A DNA stretch of 32,823 nucleotides from positions 1 to 32,823 of the forward strand of contig WJMF01000111.1 in the NCBI GenBank assembly GCA_014728085.1, in the 5' to 3' direction. This document shows, piece after piece, positions 7,701 through 32,823 of this stretch. Positions within the stretch are counted from its first letter, which is position 1. Every line of letters starts with the position of its first letter. The DNA is from Candidatus Zhuqueibacterota bacterium (GTDB lineage Bacteria; Zhuqueibacterota; Zhuqueibacteria; Residuimicrobiales; Oceaniaggregativiventaceae). Below the pieces are notes generated by a model. It was not told the origin of the DNA and ran no database searches. It worked only from the letters and a program-made list of their open reading frames with translations. The translations under genes were made by a program, and so were the position numbers.

Positions 7701-7975
7701 CAGGCTGTGCACCTTTCCTCGACCCCTCTATTCCTGGCTTGCCAACGCTCGCAACTCGATCCGGGTCATCCCACGGCACATAGAATCCACTCCTACCGCT
7801 GCTAGCTTCCGCTCCTGACGGGGTTTGGGGCGTATCTATTGCGTAGGACCTGGATTTTCAACATTGCTCGCGAGGGTAAGTTCAGAAACGAGCAGACCTC
7901 GAAAAGGAATTCAACCCTGCTATAGCGGATTGCAGGTTACAGGGCACCGCTAGCTCCCCGTCTAGCACAGCCTTG
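7701..7975 (-). ncRNA. ffs: Signal recognition particle RNA, large bacterial type with Alu domain
   Basis: The minus strand matches the long scRNA form known from Bacillus. The 5' part contains the Alu-domain core GGTGCCCTGTAACCTGCAAT, followed by GAGGTCTG. The S-domain apex is GTCAGGAGCGGAAGCTAGCAGC interrupted around a GGAA tetraloop, keeping the GTCAGG and AGCAGC strands of the Ffh-binding asymmetric loop. The ends GGCTGTGC and GCACAGCC pair to close the molecule. Compared with the usual TCC-GGAA-GGA tip, here it is AGC-GGAA-GCT, a compensated change. The 5' end abuts tRNA-Ala, so it is probably released by tRNA 3' processing; exact ends are estimates. The RNA joins Ffh to target membrane proteins to the translocon. 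Confidence 0.92.
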
Positions 7976-8048
<73 letters not shown>

Positions 8049-8051
8049 GAA

Positions 8052-8140
<89 letters not shown>

Positions 8141-8220
8141 TGACAAAAACAATACCGGATCCTTTTCCGGTCAAACAAAACAAGCGACCGGTCTTTGTCT
8201 GCGTTTAGGTCGCTGTACAC

Positions 8221-8311
<91 letters not shown>

Positions 8312-8316
8312 GTTGT

Positions 8317-8775
8317 TTATTTTTGACGAATATTCTTAAAGAACTGTTTTAACAACGACCCGGATTCCTTTTCGCCCACACCGGCTATAACCTCTGTGCG
8401 AATATCCAGATTGCGGTTATTCAAAACCTGTAGCGCAGAGCCGTCTGCGCCATAACGCGGATCACGTGCAGCATAGACCAGCAAAGGAATTCTGGCGATG
8501 AGGATGGCACCGGCACACATGGGGCAGGGTTCCAGAGTTGTATAAAGAGCGGTGTCGTCCAGCCGCCAGGAAGCGGCCGCGTGGGATGCAGCGGTTATCG
8601 CCACTATTTCAGCATGAGCGGTGGGGTCCTGCAGCGTTTCGATCAAATTGTGACCCCGTCCTATCACCTCGCCGTCTTGCACCACCACAGCTCCAATGGG
8701 AACCTCCTGCCGCTGATATGCCTTTTGCGCCTCCTCGAGGGCCATGCGCATATAGTGATGGTGATCAGGTTGCAC
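8317..8775 (-). CDS. tadA: tRNA adenosine(34) deaminase TadA
   Basis: A zinc-dependent deaminase that converts A34 of tRNA-Arg(ACG) to inosine. The 152-residue protein has the catalytic HAE triad at residues 54-56 (His ligand, Glu proton shuttle) and PCPMC at 83-87 supplying the two Cys ligands. EVPIGAVVV near 24 and the DPTAHAE context are diagnostic. The start used is GTG at 8775, seven bases after GAGG; a shorter product from the ATG at 8754 or 8748 cannot be excluded. It is flanked on both sides by tRNA genes, and its known substrate tRNA-Arg(ACG) is encoded just upstream. Confidence 0.95.
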
Positions 8776-8793
8776 GTTTGATCCTCTGAATAG

Positions 8794-8867
8794 CGCGCCC
8801 GGAGGAAGTCGAATCCCCAGCCTTCTGGTCCGTAGCCAGATGCTCTATCCAATTGAGCTACGGGCGC
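8794..8867 (-). tRNA. tRNA-Arg(ACG)
   Basis: Acceptor GCGCCCG/CGGGCGC, anticodon stem TCTGG/CCAGA around CTACGGA (anticodon ACG), T loop TTCGACT. A34 is the expected target of the neighbouring TadA. No encoded CCA. Confidence 0.95.
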
Positions 8868-8880
8868 GTATGGTGTTCGG

Positions 8881-8952
8881 TAGCGCGTACGGGGATCGAA
8901 CCCGTGTTACCGGCGTGAGAGGCCGGCGTCCTAACCGCTAGACGAACGCGCC
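8881..8952 (-). tRNA. tRNA-Glu(CTC)
   Basis: Acceptor GGCGCGT/ACGCGCT, anticodon stem CCGGC/GCCGG around CTCTCAC (anticodon CTC, reading GAG), T arm ACGGG/CCCGT. The first acceptor pair is G1:U72, which is less common. First gene after the promoter at 8968-8996. Confidence 0.93.
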
Positions 8953-9204: not shown

Positions 9205-11448
9205 ATGAGCAATTTGAAGCATATTATCTTTTTTATTCCCCTTTTATTTTGTGGCATGGATTTTTCTCAGAGCAGCGACAGCCTGATCACCCTCGACGGT
9301 GAGATTGTCGATTACCGGCAGAACGGCTTTCCCGGCCAGAGTATCCGCCTTTGAATTACCAGCCTGCCGTTGTGCTTTGATATCATCGATGAAAACAGCG
9401 CGTTTACCCTCACCTTTCCCAAAAAGCTCGTGGGTATGCAGGAGCAACCCGGGGTGCATGTCCCTGACGTGTTCGACCTGACGCCCACCTGGCCCAATCC
9501 CGGCAGCAGCGTGATCAGATGGGACTACTCCATGCCCTGGTCCACCCAGGTGTCTGCGACGATCTATGACATCCTCGGAAAAGAGGTGGGACAGATCTTT
9601 GACCAGCACCAGATCCCTGGCAGGTACACCGCGTCGTTTGACGCGACAGGGCTTCCCGCAGGGGTATATTTCGCCATGGTCAGGGCGAATGGCGCCTGGA
9701 GCGCGCAGAAATTCACTGTGCTCTCCAGGGACATGGGCAACTTCCAGGATGTGCGAGGCGCAGCAGAAAACGCGAGCTACCAGTCCTTTGCTCCGAACGG
9801 AAGGGTGCTGAGCAAGGGAGCCCTTGCCAGGGAGTATCTTGAGAACCTCGAATCCGACATCCTGATCGGCTATGACAATGCCAACGGCTTTCGGGTCGTG
9901 CAGGCTGGAACCACGAACGTGGACATCATACAGTTCCTTGCCAAGAGCGGAGGATCGATAAGCATAAAAGGCAACGCGCTCGCCCGGTTCGACGGCTTGC
10001 CGCAAGAGCCGGTCCCGGTATTTGCCGGCCAGGACACGACCATTGTCATCGGTGGCGTGTATGACGACCAGCCCTTTGACCTGGACAACCTGGTGCTGAA
10101 CTGCAACAACATGACCGTGCAGAACGTGAGCTACGGGGACAACGCCCTGGCGATGCAGGTGCGAATCGACGGAGAAAATCCCTATATCCAGGGCCAGTAT
10201 ACCGATCCCCTCGGCGGCGGGCAGGAATTCTCCCTGGACTTTGCCGTCCGGGAGAACGCCTTTACCAGTCCGCATGTGACGCTGCCCGCAATCCTTGAGG
10301 ACACGGACGAGGATTATGATGTGCTCTACGACCTTGCTTCCGTTCTTTCTGTGGATCCCGAGGGACTGACATACAGGGTGCGGTCGTCGTCTCTTGACGT
10401 CGGCGGAAAGGTGCTTCCCAACACCAGCCTGCTGCAGTACTTTACCGTGGATCCGGACTGTAACGGCCCGGCAACGCTGACCATCGAGGCCTACCGCGAC
10501 GGCGTCAAGGTCGGCCAGACCACCGCCGAGATGGAGGTGGAGCCGCAGACGGATCTCAATTTCAAGGTAAAAGATCTGCACGACGGGCTTGCGATTGCCC
10601 AGGACTATGTGCGTCTGCTGGATATGACCGATAATAAAGTCGCCGAGGGCTATACTGATATCGAGGGCCAACTCAACATCCAGATCGAAGAGTCGGGCGT
10701 CTATAAGCTCATCTATCATAAGGAAGGCTATTATGACAGGCAAGTCGGAACCGTCAACGTGGATAGCGACACGTCAATTACCGAGGTCCGCCTGAATAAA
10801 GCGACGTTTCCCATGGCGCTGCTCAACGAGATTGCCAGAGGGGGTGATTACACTACTAATCCTGATTCTGCAACAGGTGATGTCAATCGCTGGGTCACTC
10901 CTCCGCTTGAGATCGTGATCAATACAAATAATGACAGATCAGGAGACGTGGAGAATGATACGACCGCTGCCTACGAATGGGCCAAGAAACTGATGGAAGA
11001 AGAAATAAATCCCGCAACAGTAAATGATACATATCCTGACGGATTCTTCTATGGCGTTCGTGTGGAGAAAAAGAACCTGCCAACGAAAGACTACCTGTCT
11101 GCAGACATCTATTACGATGGTAAGATCATGATCCAATTCGTTACGAACCTTCCCGCCGCAGCTCTAAGACAAACGAAAGTGAACAGACAGACAGGCGAAG
11201 TGGAGGCAGCGACAATAATTTTGCAGGCAGGTCTTTCTCCTGAGGTGTATTCGGGATATGTGAACACTCTTCTTCATGAACTAGCATCAGTTACCTTTCG
11301 AACTGATGATAACTCAGATGCCATTAATACCAGCATTTTTTCGCACAATAATGGTGACCTAGATTATATCACAAAAAGAGATGGAAATCTAATAAGAGGA
11401 GTGTATTCCAGACCAACAAAATGGAAAGCTAACGATAAATCGTTATAG
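9205..11448 (+). pseudogene. Secreted multidomain protein with in-frame TGA, internal sorting-like domain and degenerate zincin-like region
   Basis: From ATG 9205 the frame reads a signal-peptide-like start (MSNLKHIIFFIPLLFCGMDF) and a carboxypeptidase-regulatory-like segment, is broken by TGA at 9352-9354, and continues open in the same frame to TAA at 11448. After the stop come SAFTLTFPKKLVG (end of the same beta-sandwich), then a domain resembling type IX sorting/FlgD Ig modules (FDLTPTWPNPGSSVIRWDY, IYDILGKEVGQIFD, LPAGVYFAMV), unusually near the N-terminus. Beta-rich regions follow, with a second regulatory-like module near 10690-10800. The last 200 codons resemble a matrixin-like peptidase (AGLSPEVYSGYVNTLLHELA), but HELAS lacks the second zinc His. 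The DNA turns from GC-rich to AT-richer near 10830. No function is assigned; most likely decaying. Confidence 0.6.
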
Positions 11449-23051: not shown

Positions 23052-24821
23052 TCACAAAGGCCAAAAGGTCAGGATTGCCGGAACACCGATGAGAACGATG
23101 AGAATTTCCAGCGGCAACCCCATACGCCAGTAATCGGTAAACTTGTACCCGCCCGGTCCCATGACCAGGGTGTTGGATTGATGGCCGATGGGGGTCAGAA
23201 AAGCGCAGGAGCCGCCGACAGCCACCGCCATCAAAAAAGGATCGATAGAGACAGCCAGTCCCTGCGCCACGCTGATGCCGATCGGTGCCATCAACACCAC
23301 GGTGGCAGCATTGTTAAGGATATCGGACAAAAACATGGTGATGATCAACAGCATCGCCAGGGTCATCCACGCCGGAAAAGAGTGACCGACATGCAGGATA
23401 AACCCGGCGATCTGTTGCGCGCCGCCGCTGGTCTCAAGCGCAGCACCAACGGGAATCATCGCGCCCAAAAGCACGATCACCGGCCAGTCAACGCTGGCAT
23501 AGACCTCGCGTACCGGCAACAAGCCGGTTAATACCATGGCCACGGCGGCGATGGAAAAAGAGATCTGCACCGGCAACCAACCGGCGACCACGGCGACAAT
23601 CGAGAGGGTAAAGAGGGACAGGCTGAGTGCTATTTTTTTCTCATAGCCCAGACGCAACCCTCTGCGGGCCAGCGGCAGACAACCGAGGGAAGAGATCACA
23701 TCATCCATCATATGTCGCCGTCCCTGTAGCAACAGCACGTCGCCGGCTCGAAATTTGATGTTGTTGAGGCGCAGGCGAATTCGTTCATCCCGACGGGCCA
23801 CGGCGAGCAGATTGACCCCGTAGCGGTTGCGCATTTTGGCATCAGAGGCCGTCTGGCCGATGAGCGGTGAATCGGCCATGAGAACCGCCTCGCTGATGGC
23901 AATGTCCTTGGATCCTTCGGCATCTTTGCGAAACTGTTTGCCCGCAGCCAGTTGAAAACCCGTATCGCCCAAAAAGGTCTCGAGCGCCTCTGTATCGCTT
24001 TCCACAATGAGGATATCACCCGTTTGTAAAACCAGATTTTCATCCGGCGCGTGTATGCGCTTGTTTTTATGCACCAGCCCGAGAATCCGCACCCTGGCAT
24101 CTGAAATGTCTTCCAGTTCAGCCAACGTCACTCCTCTGGCTTTGGCATCGCGTTTGACTTTGACTTCGGTCATATAATCATCAATGTCGAAGAGATCTTT
24201 TTCCGATTTTTTTGCCGCTCGCCGGGGAAGCAGCCGCCAGCCGATGAAACTGGTGAACAACATACCGCCCACAGCCAGAAAAATGCCCACGGGGGTAAAG
24301 GAAAACATGCCAAAAGGCGCTGCCGCCACATCGGCGCGAAAAGTAGCAATGATAATGTTGGGGGGGGTCCCGATCAGGGTGGTCATACCGCCCAACAGCG
24401 AGGCGAAAGCGATGGGCATTAGCAAATAGGAAGGTGGATTGCCGCTTTTGCGCGCCATATGCAGGGCAACGGGCATCATGATCGCCAGGGCGCCGACATT
24501 GTTCATAAAAGCGGATGCCACGGCCACCAGCAAAGACATGGCCGATATCTGCAGCAATAAATTGTCCCCCACGCGCATGACCCATTTGCCCAGCAAATCG
24601 ACCAGGCCGGAATATTCGAGCGCCTTTCCGATGATCAAAACAGCGGCCACGGTAATGACCGCCGGATGGCCAAAGCCGGAAAACGCCTCCGCCGGCGGGA
24701 CGACGCCGGCAATGACCAACACAAACAGCGCGATCAGCGCCACAAAGTCATGCCGAATACGGCCCCAGGCAAAAAGAATCAAAACGAGAAACAGAGTCAA
24801 ATAAACCAGAGTTGCTTGCAT
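23052..24821 (-). CDS. SLC13/DASS-type transporter with two TrkA-C (RCK_C) domains
   Basis: A 589-residue permease of the SLC13/CitT-like superfamily with the YfbS-type layout. The N-terminal transmembrane half ends near residue 175 and contains FMNNVGALAIMMPVALHMAR and LLGGMTTLIGTPPNI, the conserved SNT/TPPN-like cation-site region. Two TrkA-C regulatory domains occupy about 200-400 (ARVRILGLVHKNKRIHAPDE, LIVESDTEALETFLGD; then SPLIGQTASDAKMRNRYGVN, GDVLLLQGRRHMMDDV). The second transmembrane half contains SDILNNAATVVLMAPIGISV and SCAFLTPIGHQSNTLVMGPG. The symmetric TPxN motifs suggest sodium-coupled transport of an anion such as sulfate or a dicarboxylate, but the substrate cannot be read from the sequence. 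Confidence 0.9.
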   Translation of the reverse strand: MQATLVYLTLFLVLILFAWGRIRHDFVALIALFVLVIAGVVPPAEAFSGFGHPAVITVAAVLIIGKALEYSGLVDLLGKWVMRVGDNLLLQISAMSLLVAVASAFMNNVGALAIMMPVALHMARKSGNPPSYLLMPIAFASLLGGMTTLIGTPPNIIIATFRADVAAAPFGMFSFTPVGIFLAVGGMLFTSFIGWRLLPRRAAKKSEKDLFDIDDYMTEVKVKRDAKARGVTLAELEDISDARVRILGLVHKNKRIHAPDENLVLQTGDILIVESDTEALETFLGDTGFQLAAGKQFRKDAEGSKDIAISEAVLMADSPLIGQTASDAKMRNRYGVNLLAVARRDERIRLRLNNIKFRAGDVLLLQGRRHMMDDVISSLGCLPLARRGLRLGYEKKIALSLSLFTLSIVAVVAGWLPVQISFSIAAVAMVLTGLLPVREVYASVDWPVIVLLGAMIPVGAALETSGGAQQIAGFILHVGHSFPAWMTLAMLLIITMFLSDILNNAATVVLMAPIGISVAQGLAVSIDPFLMAVAVGGSCAFLTPIGHQSNTLVMGPGGYKFTDYWRMGLPLEILIVLIGVPAILTFWPL

Positions 24822-25641: not shown

Positions 25642-26388
25642 TCACCGCGGCATCAGCGCGAACACACCCCAGCCCAGATATTCACGCGTGTAAGCGGCAT
25701 AGCGCTTGGGTTCGGAGGTCAGTTTGGCTCGAACATCTTTCGCGATCTCGTCGTCGGGATTGGCTTCAAGCCATCGGCGCATGGTGAGCCATTTGGCCGC
25801 CTCGTATCGGTCCCAGCCGTTTTGATCAGCCAGCACCATTTCAATGACGTCGTAGCCGAGGTGACCGAAAGACGCGAGAAGTTCTGGAAGCATGACAAAG
25901 TCGGATATTGAGTTGGCAAGACACCCCCTGGCAACATCTTCCGTCGGCGGTAACTGCCGCCAATAGGGCTCGCCGATGAGGAGGATCCCTCCGGGGCGGA
26001 GGCTCTGCGCCAGAAGCTCGATCGTGCCGATGACTCCCCCGGCGATCCAGGTAGCACCGAGACAGGCTGCCACACCGGCCTTGTCGTCCGAAATGTAGCC
26101 GGTAGCATCGCCATGAATGAACTTGACTTGATCGGCGACGCCGAGTTCTTCAGCGCGGAGTTTCGCTTGCTCGGTGTACAACTGGCTCATGTCGATGCCG
26201 GTGCCGATGACTCTGTAATCGCGTGCCCAGGTGCACAGCATCTCCCCCGAACCGCTGCCGAGGTCGAGCACTCGGGTCCCCGTTTCCAGACGCAGCGCCG
26301 CGCCGAGAGTGGCGAGCTTTTCAGGTGTGAACGGGTTATGGATACGGTGAGCACTTTCGGTGATGTTGAAGATCCGTGGAATGTCCAT
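25642..26388 (-). CDS. Class I SAM-dependent methyltransferase
   Basis: A 248-residue Rossmann-fold methyltransferase. Motif I is RVLDLGSGSGEMLCTWA (about residues 39-55) and the acidic end of beta2 is GTGIDMSQLY. FIHGDATGY with its following acidic residue marks motif II/III, and LRPGGILLIGEPYWRQLPP is the post-motif loop. The C-terminal half has an unusual helical region (WDRYEAAKWLTMRRWLEANP) seen in small-molecule methyltransferases. The substrate is unknown. It is clearly GC-richer than the DNA around it and is flanked by structured repeats and toxin-antitoxin genes, which suggests acquisition by transfer. Confidence 0.85.
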   Translation of the reverse strand: MDIPRIFNITESAHRIHNPFTPEKLATLGAALRLETGTRVLDLGSGSGEMLCTWARDYRVIGTGIDMSQLYTEQAKLRAEELGVADQVKFIHGDATGYISDDKAGVAACLGATWIAGGVIGTIELLAQSLRPGGILLIGEPYWRQLPPTEDVARGCLANSISDFVMLPELLASFGHLGYDVIEMVLADQNGWDRYEAAKWLTMRRWLEANPDDEIAKDVRAKLTSEPKRYAAYTREYLGWGVFALMPR

Positions 26389-26512
26389 TTCGGCAAGTCT
26401 CCTTATGGGTGTGAATCAATTCGGTTACGGCCTAACCATACTACTAACTGCGGGGGTTCATCAGTGTCACCTGCCAGCACCGTTTGGGTAATATTTAAAT
26501 AGAAAACTCTCT

Positions 26513-26547
26513 CCGCCTTGAGACTGATCCAATCAAGTCAAAGGCGG
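26513..26547 (-). terminator. Possible terminator downstream of higA
   Basis: A hairpin with arms CCGCCTT and AAGGCGG plus four and three further pairs (GACT/AGTC, GAT/ATC) around loop CCA, about 31 bases after the higA stop. On the minus strand it is followed by a short TTTT only, so termination is likely but not certain. Confidence 0.5.
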
Positions 26548-26578
26548 TGCCGAACAGGTGAACATTCGGGTTCGTTGC

Positions 26579-26872
26579 TCAGGATATGCTTTTGATTTTC
26601 TCATAATCTTCGCTATGCTGTTGAAGGGTGTCCCACATGTCGACATTTAATTGTAGGTTTAGCCAAAAATCCGGAGTTGTGTTAAAATATTTTGCTAATC
26701 GAAATGCTGTGTCTGTCGTTATAGAGCGCTTGCCGGTTATGATTTCATTGACTCGCACCCGGGTAATTCCGAGCGCATCTGCGAGTTGTTGCTGAGTCAT
26801 GTTCAAGGGCTCGAGAAATTCATATTTTAATATCACTCCGGGAAGAGTGGGTTTGCGATTCTTGGGTAACAT
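26579..26872 (-). CDS. higA: HigA-type antitoxin, XRE family
   Basis: A 97-residue antitoxin of the HigA/VapI type that should bind its HigB partner and repress its own operon. The helix-turn-helix is MTQQQLADALGITRVRVNEI, followed by TGKRSITTDTAFRLAKYF and the family signature NTTPDFWLNLQ. An AGGAG lies seven bases before the ATG. It follows higB on the same strand (HigB first, as usual). The frame is intact although the toxin gene is broken, so it may now be an orphan antitoxin. Confidence 0.92.
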   Translation of the reverse strand: MLPKNRKPTLPGVILKYEFLEPLNMTQQQLADALGITRVRVNEIITGKRSITTDTAFRLAKYFNTTPDFWLNLQLNVDMWDTLQQHSEDYEKIKSIS

Positions 26873-26915
26873 GAAAAAACTCCTGGTGATATTGTACCAG
26901 TTCTACGTCAAATAT

Positions 26916-27164
26916 TTAACCATCCCTAAATACAAAACAGAGACGCCATGGTCCATTAACCGATATTGCCCACTGGGCCTCTCTATTTCCATGCAACGCA
27001 TGTAGGTGATCGGAGGGTGGTGCTGTAAGATCTTTACTGTCTTTGGCCGAATTCAACACATCAAGTTTCCTTAGCAAACGATTGTTCAAACCTGGAGGGA
27101 CTCGTTTATGCTTTCCCGTGTTCCAAAATGTTTCAAGCCGGGATTGTCGAAAACGTTCGATCAT
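26916..27164 (-). pseudogene. higB: HigB toxin truncated by an in-frame TAA
   Basis: A RelE/HigB-type mRNA interferase, recognisable over 82 residues (MIERFRQSRLETFWNTGKHK, LHALHGNREAQWAISVNGPW, RLCFVFRDG). Family members continue with one more beta strand ending in a VEIxDYH-like motif. Here a TAA at 26918-26916 interrupts, yet directly after it the same frame encodes IFDVELVQYH, the missing strand. The truncation removes the conserved C-terminal His region, so the toxin is probably inactive unless the stop is read through. It is followed by higA. Confidence 0.8.
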
Positions 27165-27172
27165 GTTACAAT
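27144..27172 (+). promoter_or_regulatory. Candidate promoter for the plus-strand higBA-like module
   Basis: TTGTCG (27144-27149), 17-base spacer, TACAAT (27167-27172). It overlaps the start of the divergent minus-strand higB, so the two modules may interfere or be co-regulated. Confidence 0.5.
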
Positions 27173-27266
27173 ATGATATGTTATGTGACTCATTACAAGA
27201 AAAATCTTATATTCCATCTAAAGGGTTGGGTAATTAATGAAAAGGTGAATAAAAATCTTGTGTTTA

Positions 27267-27280
27267 TGTCAAATTTGACA
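27267..27280. promoter_or_regulatory. Perfect 14-bp palindrome, candidate antitoxin operator
   Basis: TGTCAAATTTGACA is its own reverse complement and ends 12 bases before the toxin ATG at 27293, where an XRE antitoxin would be expected to bind. Confidence 0.5.
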
Positions 27281-27292
27281 TATGTTTCACAC

Positions 27293-27624
27293 ATGAGTCC
27301 TGATGATAAACCCTTCGTCTGGTTACACGGAGAAGTGAAATCTCCGCCCTTTTTACAAACCGCTCGGTTGGAGGCCGGCTTTCTTTTGCGAAAATTGCAG
27401 CGAGGAGAAATCCTGACAATGCCACATGCGCGTCCAATGCCTTCTATCGGGCACCGCTGTTACGAATTGCGGATTAATAATATCAATAGCGCCTGGCGCA
27501 CTATCTTAAGAATTGATACCGATGCGATTGTTCTTTTACACATTTTCAATAAAAAACAGGCAAAACGCCACAGCACATTATTGATAGTTGTCAAAAGCGA
27601 ATCAAACTTTATGATTCGATTTAA
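27293..27624 (+). pseudogene. Gp49-like/HigB2-type toxin with a one-base frameshift
   Basis: The product begins MSPDDKPFVWLHGEVKSPPF and carries LEAGFLLRKLQRGE, HARPMPSIGHRCYELRI and TILRIDTDAIVLLHIFNKK, the phage-Gp49/HigB2 toxin pattern. After NKKQAK near 27565 the frame turns into unrelated sequence. Reading on in the other frame gives KTPQHIIDSCQKRIKLYDSI and a stop at 27622-27624, which is exactly the normal family ending. One A appears to be missing in the AAAA run. The natural stop is 23 bases before the antitoxin ATG, the expected spacing. The toxin is probably inactive. Confidence 0.85.
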
Positions 27625-27647
27625 TCTTCTTATCGAGGAAAATTTAT

Positions 27648-27962
27648 ATGGATACCAAAAAGAGAAAAAGATTGCAAGACCAGGGTTGGAGCGTTGGCTC
27701 CACACAAGATTTTCTTGGTCTTTCCGATAATGAGAACATTTATATTGAACTCAAAATCACACTTGGTGAAAATCTCAAAAAGATCAGACTCGAAAAGCAA
27801 TTGACCCAGGTTGAGTTTGCAAAAGTTATTCGATCCAATCAGTCCCGGATCGCAAAAATGGAAGCCGGTGATCCATCCGTATCCATTGATTTGCAAATAA
27901 AATCATTACTCGCATTGGGGACAAGCCGAAAGGATCTTGCTAAATTGATATCAACTGATTGA
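27648..27962 (+). CDS. XRE-family antitoxin of the HigB2/HigA2 type
   Basis: A 104-residue antitoxin with an N-terminal toxin-binding region (KRKRLQDQGWSVGSTQDFLG) and a helix-turn-helix at about residues 38-90 (LGENLKKIRLEKQLTQVEFA, KVIRSNQSRIAKMEAGDPSV). It sits after the matching toxin, with GAGG nine bases before the ATG. The frame is intact while the toxin is frameshifted, as in the neighbouring minus-strand higBA module. Confidence 0.88.
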   Translation: MDTKKRKRLQDQGWSVGSTQDFLGLSDNENIYIELKITLGENLKKIRLEKQLTQVEFAKVIRSNQSRIAKMEAGDPSVSIDLQIKSLLALGTSRKDLAKLISTD

Positions 27963-28020
27963 TTCGATATCCTGTTCTTTTCATGAGAATTTTATTTTAA
28001 GAGATTTCGCTTTTTGGCCA

Positions 28021-28097
28021 TAACCATTCAGCATAACCAGTGCAGTGGTGGTTGGGTCAGGAGTGGGTGGAACTGCATCTGGTTCATGCTATGGTTA
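28021..28097. repeat. 24-bp bulged hairpin with a G-rich 25-base loop
   Basis: Left arm 28021-28046 and right arm 28072-28097 pair as TAACCAT/ATGGTTA, AGCAT/ATGCT, AACCAG/CTGGTT and TGCAGT/ACTGCA. The bulges are TC on the left and single C and T on the right. The loop contains several GG and GGG runs. The extrahelical bases resemble attC folding, but the terminal heptamers do not match RYYYAAC/GTTRRRY. Confidence 0.65.
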
Positions 28098-28142
28098 GCA
28101 GGTACTTGCGTTGCTTTCACCTATTGATTTATAAAAAAAGTA

Positions 28143-28171
28143 TTGCGCACTATTCAGATTACACGTATATT
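28143..28171 (+). promoter_or_regulatory. Candidate promoter of the phd/relE-like operon
   Basis: TTGCGC (28143-28148), 17-base spacer, TATATT (28166-28171). A short inverted repeat TTGTA-CT-TACAA at 28170-28181 overlaps the likely start point and could be the antitoxin operator. Confidence 0.5.
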
Positions 28172-28208
28172 GTACTTACAATTGCAAGAACATAATAATG
28201 GGGCCAAT

Positions 28209-28484
28209 ATGAAATTCATCAATATCAGAGAACTTTCAAAATCGCCTTCCAAATATATCAAAAGTGCCAATGAGGAAGGGGATGTGATCGTCACCCGCAA
28301 TGGCCAACCATATGCCGTTATTTCTAAAATCGATGGCGCCGAAGTGGAAGATTTTGTCCTGGCCAAACATTTCGATCTTGAAAAACAGTTCAAACGAGCG
28401 GTAAAAGAACATAAAAGCGATGAAACGATCGACGCTCGTGTTTTGCTCGAACAAATCGAAAGTGACTCGCCGGATGGGGTTTAA
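28209..28484 (+). CDS. Phd/YefM-type antitoxin
   Basis: A 91-residue antitoxin starting MKFINIRELSKSPSKYIKSA, with the Phd/YefM fold features: an N-terminal beta strand and helix for DNA binding, then EEGDVIVTRNGQPYAVISKI, and a flexible acidic C-terminal tail that would wrap the toxin (LEQIESDSPDGV). The ATG at 28209 follows GGGG; the frame is open further upstream but that part crosses the promoter. Its end overlaps the toxin start by 11 bases. Confidence 0.9.
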   Translation: MKFINIRELSKSPSKYIKSANEEGDVIVTRNGQPYAVISKIDGAEVEDFVLAKHFDLEKQFKRAVKEHKSDETIDARVLLEQIESDSPDGV

Positions 28485-28794
28485 AGTCGAATTCACCAAA
28501 AGAGCAATAAAGGATTTAAAGCGATTAACCAGCAACCAGCAACGACAAATTGTCCTGCAATCGATTGAACTTGAAAACGAGCCTTTTCCGTTCAAAAAAA
28601 AGGTCAAACGCATTCAGGGCTTCAAATTTCCCTGCTATCGCTTGCGCATTGACCTGGATTCCGACTCGTTCAGAGTATTTTATGGTATTGAAAACGATAT
28701 CGTTTTTATTCTGCGAATTATCGCCAGGAAAGATGCTGATAAAATCTTAAAAGCTCTAAAGAATATTGACTTCCCACCGGATATCCCCCAATAA
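28474..28794 (+). CDS. RelE/ParE-superfamily toxin
   Basis: A 106-residue toxin with the RelE fold: MGFKVEFTKRAIKDLKRLTS (beta1 and helix 1), FPFKKKVKRIQGFKFPCYRL and RIDLDSDSFRVFYGIENDIV (beta hairpin), and IIARKDADKILKALKNID at the C-terminus. R/K residues in the RVFYG and ARKDA segments occupy the usual catalytic area of RelE-type ribosome-dependent RNases, but a ParE-type target cannot be excluded. The ATG at 28474 lies inside the antitoxin end, so the pair is translationally coupled. Of the three adjacent modules this is the only one with an intact toxin. Confidence 0.9.
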   Translation: MGFKVEFTKRAIKDLKRLTSNQQRQIVLQSIELENEPFPFKKKVKRIQGFKFPCYRLRIDLDSDSFRVFYGIENDIVFILRIIARKDADKILKALKNIDFPPDIPQ

Positions 28795-28831: not shown

Positions 28832-28891
28832 AGTCAACGCAAGTGGAACATATTCTCTGCTCAAACTACTTTTATAACAGGCTCGTTGGGC
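28832..28891 (-). other. Possible degenerate attC site (one good core)
   Basis: GTTGGGC at 28885-28891 (GCCCAAC on the minus strand) fits the attC core. The partner AGTCAAC at 28832-28838 has one mismatch, giving a 60-bp element about 90 bases after the DUF4386 stop. Internal arms hardly pair, so it may be only a half-site or a cluster border. Confidence 0.35.
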
Positions 28892-28981
28892 GGCGTCGCA
28901 GAGCACTAAAGCTTGCCGGTCAACTTGTCACGGTAGTGGTATGGCGAATGCAAACAGATGTGCTGGCAGCTCTTGCACCCA

Positions 28982-29677
28982 CTAGGGCTCAGCGATCGAC
29001 CCTGCCACGTCCGGGAGTTTGCGCCCGCGAATCAGTAACCAGAAAATGAAGGCCACTTCGCCGATGAATGTGAACATAGCCAGGCCGAGAACGTAGTCCG
29101 GACTGAGCAGGGTGCCGAAACCGTCCACGGTGTATCCCACGCCCGCAAGGATCAGCAGGCCGCCGAAGAGCCAGTGAATAAAGCCTGACTGCCAGGCCAC
29201 AAGTCCTACGACGATGAGGTGAACGCCGAATATGACCAAACCGACCTGCCAGAGGGTATCAAAGCTCTCGAGAAAGAACACCGTCAGAGCTGGATCCATC
29301 GGCCCGGCGCGCAGTGCATCGTACAGGCTGTTGACCGCCACTGCCAGAATTGCCGCGTACACCAAGCGCAGCCAGCAGCCGAGCAACGAGAGGCTCGGGT
29401 TCACACTGCGAAGTACTACGTACAGCCCCCACGCCACAACCACATCCAGGATCGCCACGACGATCAAGCCGGCGGCGGCCAAACGAAGGAGCTCCGCCGA
29501 TTCGGCCAGGTTGGCTGCGGTGGCGGCCGGATCGCCGGGAACGGCCAGATTTGCGATGACACCGAAGTTGGCCAGTGCAGCAACGACCGCCATCACTAGC
29601 AAACCGATGCCAGCAACAAGAGCGGCGGTGCCTGCCCGTGTGTCGCCCTTCAAATTCGCGGTTGCCTTTGTATTCAC
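28982..29677 (-). CDS. DUF4386-like membrane protein (cassette gene)
   Basis: A 231-residue multi-pass membrane protein with about six hydrophobic helices: AALVAGIGLLVMAVVAALAN, LRLAAAGLIVVAILDVVVAW, LLGCWLRLVYAAILAVAVNS, LWQVGLVIFGVHLIVVGLVA, the GLLILAGVGYTVDGFGTL region and FTFIGEVAFIFWLLIRGRKL. The order and the GYxVD motif fit the DUF4386 family, whose function is unknown. An AGGAGG precedes the ATG. The gene is strikingly GC-rich next to AT-rich neighbours, and its start lies 37 bases from the attC core at 29714-29720, as expected for an integron-type cassette. Confidence 0.8.
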   Translation of the reverse strand: MNTKATANLKGDTRAGTAALVAGIGLLVMAVVAALANFGVIANLAVPGDPAATAANLAESAELLRLAAAGLIVVAILDVVVAWGLYVVLRSVNPSLSLLGCWLRLVYAAILAVAVNSLYDALRAGPMDPALTVFFLESFDTLWQVGLVIFGVHLIVVGLVAWQSGFIHWLFGGLLILAGVGYTVDGFGTLLSPDYVLGLAMFTFIGEVAFIFWLLIRGRKLPDVAGSIAEP

Positions 29678-29713
29678 TGCTTACCTCCTTGTACTTGGGT
29701 ATTTCAGAGCGCC

Positions 29714-29813
29714 GCCCAACAAGTTGCTCAAACGCGGCGGTGAACAACAATCTGATTGACCAACAAAATCTGGAAATAATTTTGATACAGCCCCGTGCAG
29801 CAAAATGTTGGGC
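29714..29813 (-). other. attC-like recombination site (100 bp)
   Basis: Bounded by perfectly complementary cores GCCCAAC (29714-29720) and GTTGGGC (29807-29813), consistent with RYYYAAC and GTTRRRY. Inside, an extra A/T pair, a 2-base unpaired spacer and then TTGCT/AGCAA, followed by an interrupted ACG..GGC/GCC..CGT arm of unequal length, reproduce the R box, spacer and L box layout with extrahelical bases. The orientation follows the flanking genes; the internal consensus is ambiguous on this point. Confidence 0.7.
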
Positions 29814-29854
29814 GACGGCACCACCACGCAGTGTGCATTACAAGACTCACATCA

Positions 29855-30496
29855 TTAACCGGTGACTTTCCGAAACAAGTATGCATTACCCACCCTTTTG
29901 TATGCAATCCCTTTTTGAAGTTTTTCCAAATACTCTTTCGTCACTCGAATCGGCGATTTGGGCACAAAGTACTCATCAAGGTTCGTCTCTCGAATAGAAT
30001 ACTTTCCTTTTCGCAAAAAGAATACCCCTATTAGTTGATAATTCCTATCTATAGCCGCCAGGCCGGCATCACCGTGACTGTTATTGGCTAACAGCAACCC
30101 GCCTGTTTTGAGATACTTTTTACAATCTTGCCCCACAAACCCCGCATACTGAGAAATCAACAAATCAAAACTATCAGGGTCTTCAGCAAACCCATTTCTG
30201 TAATCAGCAAAATGATATCGAACTTGAGCCATTTGTGAGTAATTCTTTTTTTGAGCGATAAGCTCATCTGTCTCAGGAGCATCAAAAAATTGTCTGGCTT
30301 GTCTGTCGTTATCCACATAAACGACCTCTGGAAAAATAAAAGAGGGCGTGATATGCACAAAACTGCCTGGATACAAGACGCACTGCAAGGTAAATCTGTC
30401 GGCAATTATTTGGAATAGATCCCGGCGCTCAAATTCCCTATCCACAAAATATTTTTGATATAAAGCAAGAGTAGATTTTGTCACTGCCTTTTCCAA
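29855..30496 (-). CDS. Methyltransferase-fold-like protein of unknown function (cassette gene)
   Basis: A 213-residue protein without a family I can name firmly. The core looks like a degenerate class I methyltransferase: VYVDNDRQARQFF (acidic end of a beta strand), MAQVRYHFADYRNGF, then FDLLISQYAGFVGQDCKKYL and KTGGLLLANNSHGDAG in the place of motifs IV and V. No clear GxGxG motif I is seen; YPGSFVHITP may replace it. The C-terminal part contains FVPKSPIRVTKEYLEKLQKG. The start used is TTG at 30496, 22 bases from the attC core; GTG at 30484 is an alternative. It is the only gene between two attC-like sites. Confidence 0.65.
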   Translation of the reverse strand: MEKAVTKSTLALYQKYFVDREFERRDLFQIIADRFTLQCVLYPGSFVHITPSFIFPEVVYVDNDRQARQFFDAPETDELIAQKKNYSQMAQVRYHFADYRNGFAEDPDSFDLLISQYAGFVGQDCKKYLKTGGLLLANNSHGDAGLAAIDRNYQLIGVFFLRKGKYSIRETNLDEYFVPKSPIRVTKEYLEKLQKGIAYKRVGNAYLFRKVTG

Positions 30497-30517
30497 TTCT
30501 TATCAACACATTTCGCC

Positions 30518-30645
30518 GCCCAACAATTGTATCACCTGTTTGAAACGCATCAGACGAGACTGTTAAAAAGAACTGAACTTCAAACTTTACACAAAAACAG
30601 TACAAAAAAATCTGCGTTTCAAATCAGGTGCATGCGCTGTTAGAC
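30518..30645 (-). other. attC-like recombination site (128 bp) with bulged 17-bp stem
   Basis: Cores GCCCAAC (30518-30524) and GTTAGAC (30639-30645) both fit RYYYAAC/GTTRRRY. Inner arms 30533-30549 and 30613-30630 pair over 17 bp, CACCTG/CAGGTG and TTTGAAACGCA/TGCGTTTCAAA, interrupted only by one extrahelical base (T30624). A further ACTGTT/AACAGT pair lies in the terminal region. Read on the minus strand, the extra base is in the left half, as described for attC sites. Confidence 0.78.
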
Positions 30646-30735
30646 CACCGATGCGGCATAAAGAACAGTTATATTGAATTTGCAAAGAACTGAAAAGAAA
30701 AGTATTTTGTGGAACAAGTATGAGATCGTTCTACT

Positions 30736-31137
30736 CTAAATAGTTATATCGGACAAATTTATTGTAATATTGGGAAATGCTTTTATTAGCTGCTTGTCTG
30801 TTGTAATAAGTTTGGCCCCTAAATCTTTTGCTAATGCCACATATTCGCAATCATAAGCACTACAACCAGATTCTTTAGCTAACTCTAGCACATCCTTTGA
30901 TTGGACTTGATATTCACCGCCCTGCATTAACTCTTCTGCTTTCTTCACCAAGAACAGAGCTTGTGATAGGTCGAAATATTTATTCCTGACGTATGTTGCC
31001 AGAACGTTCCGATATTCACTGCGCCATAATAATGGTGCAATCCACTCGGGATCTTTTTTTAGTAGCTGTTTGGCTTTATCTGTATACCTACCTTCAATCA
31101 AAAGATAAGCAATAACATTCGCATCTATTACTTTCAT
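30736..31137 (-). CDS. PIN-domain toxin (VapC/FitB-like)
   Basis: A 133-residue PIN ribonuclease. The acidic metal-binding residues are in place: Asp5 (KVIDANVIAYLL), Glu41 (WRSEYRNVL), Asp96 (CSAYDCEYVALA) and Asp114 (LITTDKQLIKAFP). The start overlaps the antitoxin stop by four bases (ATGA), the usual operon layout. VapC-type toxins cleave specific RNAs, often initiator tRNA. An attC-like site lies about 90 bases after its stop. Confidence 0.93.
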   Translation of the reverse strand: MKVIDANVIAYLLIEGRYTDKAKQLLKKDPEWIAPLLWRSEYRNVLATYVRNKYFDLSQALFLVKKAEELMQGGEYQVQSKDVLELAKESGCSAYDCEYVALAKDLGAKLITTDKQLIKAFPNITINLSDITI

Positions 31138-31376
31138 AGTCTTCCGAATTCTTTATACTCTTTTAATTTTTCGTCGGTTAAATAGGGAACATCAATATTT
31201 TGATAAAAGTTTTCGATTTGGCTAATAAAATCATCCGGATTAACTTTTCGACTTTTAATCATATTTTCGATGCAATAAATAACTTCATTATTAATGCTCC
31301 GACGATTAAAGGAAGCAGTAGCCTTTAGTTTAAGGTACAGCTCGTTAGGAATATTTTTTACTGTAATTGTTGCCAT
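31134..31376 (-). CDS. Ribbon-helix-helix antitoxin (FitA/VapB-like)
   Basis: An 80-residue antitoxin. The N-terminal ribbon-helix-helix (MATITVKNIPNELYLKLKAT, ASFNRRSINNEVIYCIENM) is of the Arc/FitA type and should bind the operator. The C-terminal tail (IENFYQNIDVPYLTDEKLKE) would bind the PIN toxin. The ATG at 31376 is chosen because GAGGTG stands six bases before it; a GTG three codons upstream overlaps that site. Confidence 0.9.
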   Translation of the reverse strand: MATITVKNIPNELYLKLKATASFNRRSINNEVIYCIENMIKSRKVNPDDFISQIENFYQNIDVPYLTDEKLKEYKEFGRL

Positions 31377-31419
31377 TGAAATCACCTCATTTAATTACTG
31401 CAAAATGAAACCATAATGA

Positions 31420-31448: not shown

Positions 31449-31476
31449 TGATTTTTTTGTGGTCTGACTTTTAGTG

Positions 31477-31580
31477 TTTTATGCGTCGTTGAGCCAAAAA
31501 AAAACAGAACCATTTCAATAATCCATTTGCTATTGTATTATTTTATATTTTAAAAATGTCAGGCTCAATGACGTATAAAA
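31477..31580. repeat. 19-bp inverted repeat (17 matches) with AT-rich centre
   Basis: The arm at 31477-31495 (ending CGTTGAGCC) and the arm at 31562-31580 (starting GGCTCAATGACG) match in 17 of 19 positions when one is reverse-complemented, about 66 bases apart. It lies between the toxin-antitoxin promoter and the IS21 end. The right arm may be within the element and the left one outside. Confidence 0.55.
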
Positions 31581-31616
31581 TTCGGTTGAACGAATCCGCT
31601 GAACACTATGGTGCGT

Positions 31617-31708
31617 ATTCCGGGTCAAAACTGCCACCCATTCCGGGTGAAACCTGCCACCTATTCCGGATAAAAGTTGCCACCCATTCCGGATGAAAAC
31701 TGCCACCC
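31617..31708 (+). repeat. Four tandem 23-bp repeats at the IS21 left end
   Basis: Four head-to-tail copies begin at 31617, 31640, 31663 and 31686, each starting ATTCCGG and ending TGCCACC(C/T) with few internal differences. IS21-family ends carry such repeats as transposase binding sites. Confidence 0.85.
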
Positions 31709-31783
31709 GACATTTTGCTTTTCCGAACATTCTCTTAAATCGCTATCTTTTTCCACTGGGTCTAACAAGTGGAGGAGATAGTA

Positions 31784-32823
31784 ATGCCAATGAAAAGAAA
31801 GTCTATGGAAAAAATAAGAGAAATTATACGTATTAAAGAACAAAGTAATCTCAGTGAAAGAGCCATTTCACGAGCGCTTAAAATTTCCAGACCAGTTGTA
31901 AAGCGATATCTCACGACAATTGAAAATGCCGGTCTTGATTATCAAGCTATTAAAGAAATGTCTGATACGACATTGCTGGAGATTCTTTCAGATAAAAATC
32001 TTCATTGCTCTGAAAAATATAAAACTCTGCATCAATATTTTCCATATTTTGTAAAAGAGCTCAAACGAACCGGTGTCACATTACAGCTTTTATGGGAAGA
32101 ATCCCTTAAAGAACATCCTGATGGATACAAATATTCTCAATTCTGTTACCACTTTCAAAAATGGCGTGATGACAACAAACCAGACATGCACATTGAGCAC
32201 AAAGCCGGTGACAAGGTTTTTGTAGATTTTACAGGAAAACATCTTTTCCTTGTCGATCCTGAAACAGGTAAAAATCAACCTGTTGAAGTCTTTGTCGCTG
32301 TCCTGGGCGCCAGTCAAAAAACCTATGTTCAAGCAACTAAAAGCCAACAGAAAGATGATTGGATCGATGCCAATCAGAATGCTTTTCTTTATTTCCAGGG
32401 AGTGACAAATGCCATTGTACCGGATTGTTTAAAAACAGCCATTACAAAAGCTAATAAATATGAGCCGGATATCAATCCTGAGTATCTGGATTTTGCCAGA
32501 CATTATAGCACAACTATTCTGCCAACCCGACCTGCAAGTCCACAGGATAAACCTTTGGTTGAAGGAGCGGTCAAAATTGTATATGCCTGGATTTTTGCCC
32601 GATTGCGAAATCGTATCTTTCATCACCTGGATGAGCTTAATGCTGCAATTTTTGAATTGCTCGACGATTACAATAATAGGCCCATGCAAAAAATTAAAAT
32701 TTCCAGAAATGTACTATTTAATAAAATTGAAAAAGATGCTCTTAAACCGTTACCTGCTAACAAGTATGTTAAAAGAAATTTTTACCGGTCAAAAGCACAA
32801 TTTAATTATCATATTTATTTCAA
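31784..32823 (+). CDS. istA: IS21-family transposase IstA, 3' end cut by window edge
   Basis: The frame is open for 346 codons to the window end, with GGAGG eight bases before the ATG. The N-terminus has a helix-turn-helix (NLSERAISRALKISRPVVKR), and a second DNA-binding region follows to about residue 130. The retroviral-integrase-type catalytic core begins GDKVFVDFTGKHLFLVDPET with Asp148; IVPDCLKTAITK gives Asp214, and PLVEGAVKIVYAWIFARLRN gives Glu260, so the DDE triad is complete. No stop or shift is seen, so this copy could be active. Confidence 0.93.
   Translation, partial: MPMKRKSMEKIREIIRIKEQSNLSERAISRALKISRPVVKRYLTTIENAGLDYQAIKEMSDTTLLEILSDKNLHCSEKYKTLHQYFPYFVKELKRTGVTLQLLWEESLKEHPDGYKYSQFCYHFQKWRDDNKPDMHIEHKAGDKVFVDFTGKHLFLVDPETGKNQPVEVFVAVLGASQKTYVQATKSQQKDDWIDANQNAFLYFQGVTNAIVPDCLKTAITKANKYEPDINPEYLDFARHYSTTILPTRPASPQDKPLVEGAVKIVYAWIFARLRNRIFHHLDELNAAIFELLDDYNNRPMQKIKISRNVLFNKIEKDALKPLPANKYVKRNFYRSKAQFNYHIYF

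Follow-up and report, generated by a model that had tools for sequence, protein, structure and literature searches.

Does a row of single genes separated by repeats that resemble recombination sites, with no recombinase gene beside it, mark the remains of an integron? This question is raised by the 32,823-nt window analysed here, which is the whole of one contig (C10) of a Candidatus Zhuqueibacterota genome (5.19 Mb in 244 contigs, 97.9% complete). The original prediction, made from the sequence alone, was of a cluster of attC sites lacking an integrase, or of the far end of an array. That proposal is supported by independent attC models, by attC homologues beside the intI genes of relatives and by the lack of an intact intI in the assembly. 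In the published definition, that of the IntegronFinder class, a CALIN has at least two attC sites <4 kb apart and no intI. In the window, three predicted sites (28018-28100, 29714-29813 and 30518-30645) lie on one strand within 2.7 kb, the largest gap being 1.6 kb, with cassettes between them and no intI nearby. The locus differs from described CALIN in nothing essential, one drifted and one atypical site aside, and we conclude that it is a CALIN, a decayed or split chromosomal integron; clusters of this kind have been described before, and the window adds another member.

The two sites recognized in the original prediction have their cores and arms where it placed them. On the minus strand, site 30645-30518 (128 nt) runs from core GTCTAAC to core GTTGGGC, and site 29813-29714 (100 nt) from GCCCAAC to GTTGGGC, with an inverted core match of 7/7; in both, the end heptamers conform exactly to RYYYAAC and GTTRRRY. 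Site 28018-28100 (83 nt, minus strand), which the prediction missed, departs from consensus at both cores (TGCTAAC and GTTATGG). Bulged arms had been attributed to both of the predicted sites. Site 30518-30645 shares with 28018-28100 two unpaired bases on the same arm, six nucleotides apart (T-N6-C on the bottom strand), whereas 29714-29813 has drifted L arms and neither a clean bulge pattern nor six-apart bulges. Unpaired bases six apart are the spacing that the integrase uses most efficiently, and 28018-28100 and 30518-30645 in this respect resemble the T-N6-G/T-N6-C attC sites described earlier (PMC3053210), whereas 29714-29813 and a further site at 31462-31591 show the spacing unclearly.

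A detector based on paired cores and arm pairing gave scores of 21.0 for 30518-30645 and 13.7 for 29714-29813; annotated attC sites of class 1 plasmids scored 13.5-18. Twenty shuffled windows yielded a single match of at least 11 (12.5), and 35 unrelated loci (328 kb) none of at least 12.5. The background was higher in unrelated contigs of this genome, at about one match of at least 12 per 250 kb, and ∼500 kb of its other contigs gave chance matches of 14.1 and 14.5, so that 13.7 is not by itself decisive for 29714-29813. A separate bulge test, which demands both cores and, on the 5' arm, two unpaired bases at a spacing of six, was passed by 30518-30645 and by 28018-28100, the latter with 8/8. 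By chance it was passed once in unrelated DNA (328 kb) and once in other contigs (607 kb); a further chance match fell inside a transporter gene of the window, at 23348-23415.

Searches for attC were run with the purpose-built covariance models R2 and R3; an earlier model, R1, with trimmed loops, was dropped, long sites being out of its reach. The training set of R2 comprised 12 attC sites, taken from class 1 integrons, a cyanobacterial plasmid and relatives but not from this genome; that of R3 comprised 22, among them sites on other contigs of this genome, with the window sites left out. Contigs were searched directly with the models, and the attC scan covered ∼13% of the genome. In both models loops were padded, a few spacers were trimmed or padded, and calibration was brief, so that the E-values are rough. 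With R2, 28018-28100 scored 24.2 bits (E 0.003 in 77 kb), 30518-30645 25.2 bits (E 0.013 in 534 kb) and 29714-29813 16.0 bits. With R3, searched against 677 kb of this genome, the first two rose to 31.5 bits (E 3.3e-4) and 28.5 bits (E 0.0019); 29714-29813 was weak, at 14.6 bits (E 0.22 in a search of the window). The sites are not background, 29714-29813 being the weak one, and 28018-28100 is the best attC site in the window. The same 677 kb gave 15 R3 matches, confined to six contigs (C10, C18, C23, C24, C120 and C142) and to a single strand in each, and 328 kb of unrelated genomes gave none. A search of Rfam returned no attC-like match.

The three sites also share 69-87% identity with attC sites beside the intact intI genes of relatives or on other contigs of this genome. 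For site 30518-30645 the identity is 69% over 114 bp, with an attC from a locus fetched around the intact intI of a relative (L076). Site 28018-28100 is 72% identical to an attC in another such locus (L067) and 84-87% identical to copies in C120 and C18, the C120 copy (84%) having intact cores. Although its model score is low, 29714-29813 is 72% identical over 69 bp to an attC of C24, and we therefore read it as a drifted attC; by sequence and predicted fold, 30518-30645 and 28018-28100 are assigned as attC recombination sites. These results bear on whether the region could instead be an ordinary chromosomal toxin-antitoxin island strewn with attC-like palindromic repeats of REP or MITE type. 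In favour of this, the genome contains further copies of the 31462-31591 element and of the 28018-28100 stem-loop, and one copy in C18 has degenerate cores. The bulge signature, the core heptamers and the alternation of genes and sites are nevertheless those of attC, the sites are confined to six contigs, and their homologues flank real intI genes, so that we consider dispersed repeats a most improbable explanation.

Two further candidates in the window fared differently. The site at 31462-31591 (minus strand), also missed by the original prediction, has cores GTTCAAC and GTCAGAC and a long stem with A.C mismatches in place of bulges. Neither R2 nor R3 recovered it; it is 77% identical over 145 bp to a copy at C23:3913-4051 (L109), with homology that stops near both cores. 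We regard it as an atypical attC-like site, with which the PIN cassette described below would begin. The heptamer GTTGGGC at 28885-28891 (plus strand), which had been put forward as a possible attC, is bare: it has no arms and no hairpin partner, only a repeated 52-bp block, and was rejected. The block (28836-28887, the junction extending to 28891) recurs in C18 at 94% identity (L106:11689-11740), where it ends at GTTAGCT, and the two copies diverge directly after the GTT of the core-like heptamer. The feature is a junction rather than an attC, and the ends of the block could be left over from recombination at G|TTRRRY. From 28018 down to 25600 no attC was found; worn look-alikes there, a weak inverted repeat around 26430-26560 and some heptamers around 25611, were not significant and were rejected. 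Neither attI nor Pc was found, and the intI-proximal end of an array is absent from the window.

Gene content follows the sites. On the minus strand, the atypical site 31591-31462 is followed by a FitA-like RHH antitoxin (31134-31385) and PIN toxin (30736-31137; Pfam PF22513/PF01850 for the pair, 30736-31385) and then by attC 30645-30518; next come a gene for a 213-aa protein (29855-30496), attC 29813-29714, a gene for a DUF4386 membrane protein (28982-29677; PF14329, E 2.6e-40) and the lone core 28891-28885. Beyond this core, a Phd/YefM antitoxin and ParE/RelE toxin (28143-28794, plus strand; PF02604, PF05016) lie antisense to the array and precede attC 28100-28018. Past that site are a second antisense pair, of Gp49/HigB-like toxin and HTH antitoxin frames (27128-27962, plus strand; PF05973, PF01381), a HigBA pair (26579-27164, minus strand; PF05015, and TIGR02607 above cut-off) and a class I methyltransferase (25642-26388, minus strand, identified with Pfam; GC 0.59). 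In all, the region holds four toxin-antitoxin modules, the DUF4386 gene, the 213-aa gene and the methyltransferase. The PIN pair, the 213-aa gene and the DUF4386 gene are each a single gene or operon that starts near a core and is oriented with the attC, as in gene cassettes; the starts of the latter two lie 22 and 37 bases past their cores, as had been predicted, and the Pfam matches agree with the predicted identities of the PIN module and the DUF4386 gene. The sharp GC contrast of the DUF4386 gene also held up (0.608 versus 0.407 and 0.402 for its neighbours). Both the Phd/ParE and the Gp49/HTH pairs are oriented opposite to the array. The Gp49/HTH and HigBA modules are probably further cassette content, and the methyltransferase is possibly an old cassette at the array edge: a heptamer GTTAGGC (26430-26436) lies 42 bases ahead of its start, and the attC models gave no match there. 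The methyltransferase is also partly covered by the PADLOC mad2 model (E 8e-16), probably as a generic methyltransferase match.

A 'methyltransferase-like' assignment had been given to the 213-aa gene, and this was not upheld: its product has no Pfam, NCBIfam, PADLOC or credible PDB match, and the real methyltransferase is the gene at 25642-26388. A single-sequence AlphaFold model of the 213-aa protein had a pLDDT of 34, and a search for viral relatives found none. Homologues with ∼36-54% identity occur in five other genomes of the phylum and on three plasmids. The plasmid relatives (36-40%), from Maritalea, Tritonibacter and a Tenericutes bacterium (L086-L088), are always annotated as hypothetical, with no clear attC nearby.

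The locus is not conserved as ordinary chromosome. Of 82 genomes of the phylum, this one included, 6 have the 213-aa gene and 3 the DUF4386 gene, and no attC lay near the relatives of the DUF4386 gene in 35 named genome loci. In a genome of the same family (G002), the transporter that flanks the array on its left is represented by an orthologue with 76% identity, beside which there is neither an array nor any attC site. Upstream, the array is bounded by an element that the contig end cuts (31616-32823, plus strand). Four 23-bp repeats (31616-31707) mark its end, and an istA-like open frame runs from ∼31784 to the contig end, with an rve domain slightly below Pfam's cut-off (E 1.1e-6); we named it IS21-type from this anatomy. 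Elsewhere in the window, a large bacterial SRP RNA gene and five tRNA genes are clustered on the minus strand (7705-8952).

The IS21-type neighbour, the mixed GC of the cassettes and the array-free G002 orthologue would all fit a cassette cluster imported on a mobile element, such as a plasmid or transposon integron, rather than a resident integron. We consider this improbable, since many attC sites lie on several contigs of this genome, the toxin-antitoxin content is heavy, intI is common across relatives and no plasmid DNA match was found.

Where, then, is the integrase? As had been noted, the window has none: neither TIGR02249 nor IntI has a match in contig C10. Nor did the whole assembly, searched with profiles and with proteins, yield an intact IntI; these searches recovered two Xer-type recombinases of the host. 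The one remnant lies at the end of contig C142 (6064-6225, L063), a 5'-truncated, 54-residue IntI-like C-terminus for which the integron integrase model is the best match; it is 51-68% identical to the IntI proteins of relatives, as against 44% to the host Xer protein. The frames upstream of it are interrupted by many stops, the N-terminal part having been lost within the contig, and, as in an integron, it points away from attC sites that lie on the other strand. Attendant genes include HEPN/MNT, Fic-like and methyltransferase genes. A weak Xer-like C-terminus in C23 (E 0.1) was left out of the IntI count. As assembled, the locus is not a complete integron, in which an intact intI adjoins the array. 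Among 40 relatives from the same family, order and class, 17 encode an IntI above the curated cut-off, and many broken intI copies are also present. Some intact copies stand beside attC sites homologous to those of the window, and in L067 intI lies on the strand opposite to a series of attC sites, which is the geometry of an array. In this group, integrons seem common, many of them in decay.

These data also bear on whether the cluster belongs to a complete, working integron that the assembly has split, its intact intI lying in missing sequence. The window, a whole contig, ends inside the IS21-type repeat, most attC-bearing contigs are short, draft assemblies are reported to inflate CALIN counts (PMC9024848), and relatives do carry intact IntI. 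Against this, profile and protein searches of a 97.9% complete genome yielded no intact IntI, and the sole IntI fragment in it has lost the N-terminal part within a contig. We regard a split working integron as a serious possibility, though short of a probable one.

Other contigs give a wider view of the cassettes. C120 (L176) has a clean cassette array with an attC at 754-836 and a toxin-antitoxin cassette, and C18 carries, near 9500-9700, a truncated copy of that cassette fused to its attC. A mobile-like element is shared by C24 (L112:171-969), C18 (L106:16212-16473) and C142 (L063:18-499), with identities of 98% and 88%. Its ends adjoin attC core heptamers (after RYYYAAC, at GTTCAAC), and it is possibly an attC-targeting insertion element.

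We conclude that the cluster is very probably a surviving segment of a chromosomal-type integron, whose cassettes would have been captured by IntI and whose integrase has probably been lost. Integron integrase acts on attC as a folded bottom strand, which it binds and cuts. The unit in the window would be a gene cassette, made up of a core, a gene or toxin-antitoxin pair and an attC, and the integrase would have captured and ordered such units by binding the folded bottom strand and cutting at G|TTRRRY; the IS21-type element would have landed at the upstream edge of the array. With cores, spacers and arms laid out in the same way, the units resemble the class 1 integron cassettes used in model training (aadA1, aac and VIM plasmids, L083-L085), but loops are longer in the window (sites of 83-130 nt) and resistance genes are absent. 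There is also a likeness to the sedentary chromosomal integron of Vibrio cholerae, with its toxin-antitoxin-rich cassettes (19 toxin-antitoxin cassettes have been described; PMC11023631) and embedded IS; the present genome differs in having no working integrase, in the spread of its sites over several contigs and in attC sites that are diverse rather than near-identical. Toxin-antitoxin cassettes of known chromosomal integrons bear their own promoters (PMC11023631), which would explain the reverse orientation of the Phd/ParE and Gp49/HTH modules. Such modules may also select against loss of neighbouring cassettes. The attC sites, their cassette layout, the lack of an intact intI in the assembly and the intI remnant near attC sites on C142 are observed directly; that IntI captured the cassettes, that the integrase was lost and not merely missed through an assembly gap, and that the toxin-antitoxin modules stabilize the cluster is inferred.

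With no intact integrase, the cluster should be immobile except where an integrase is supplied in trans; excision or capture of CALIN cassettes by an integrase of other origin is possible (PMC9668308). A more doubtful, tentative extension is that this organism retains, in several attC clusters, a large toxin-antitoxin-rich cassette pool that has lost every working integrase, is held by addiction modules and can be mobilized only in trans. The drifted and truncated sites offer a picture of integron decay after loss of the integrase, and attC sites that have diverged beyond what a simple consensus can capture proved recognizable through bulge spacing and genome-specific models. The finding contributes an integron from a bacterial group where intI proves to be common and often broken.
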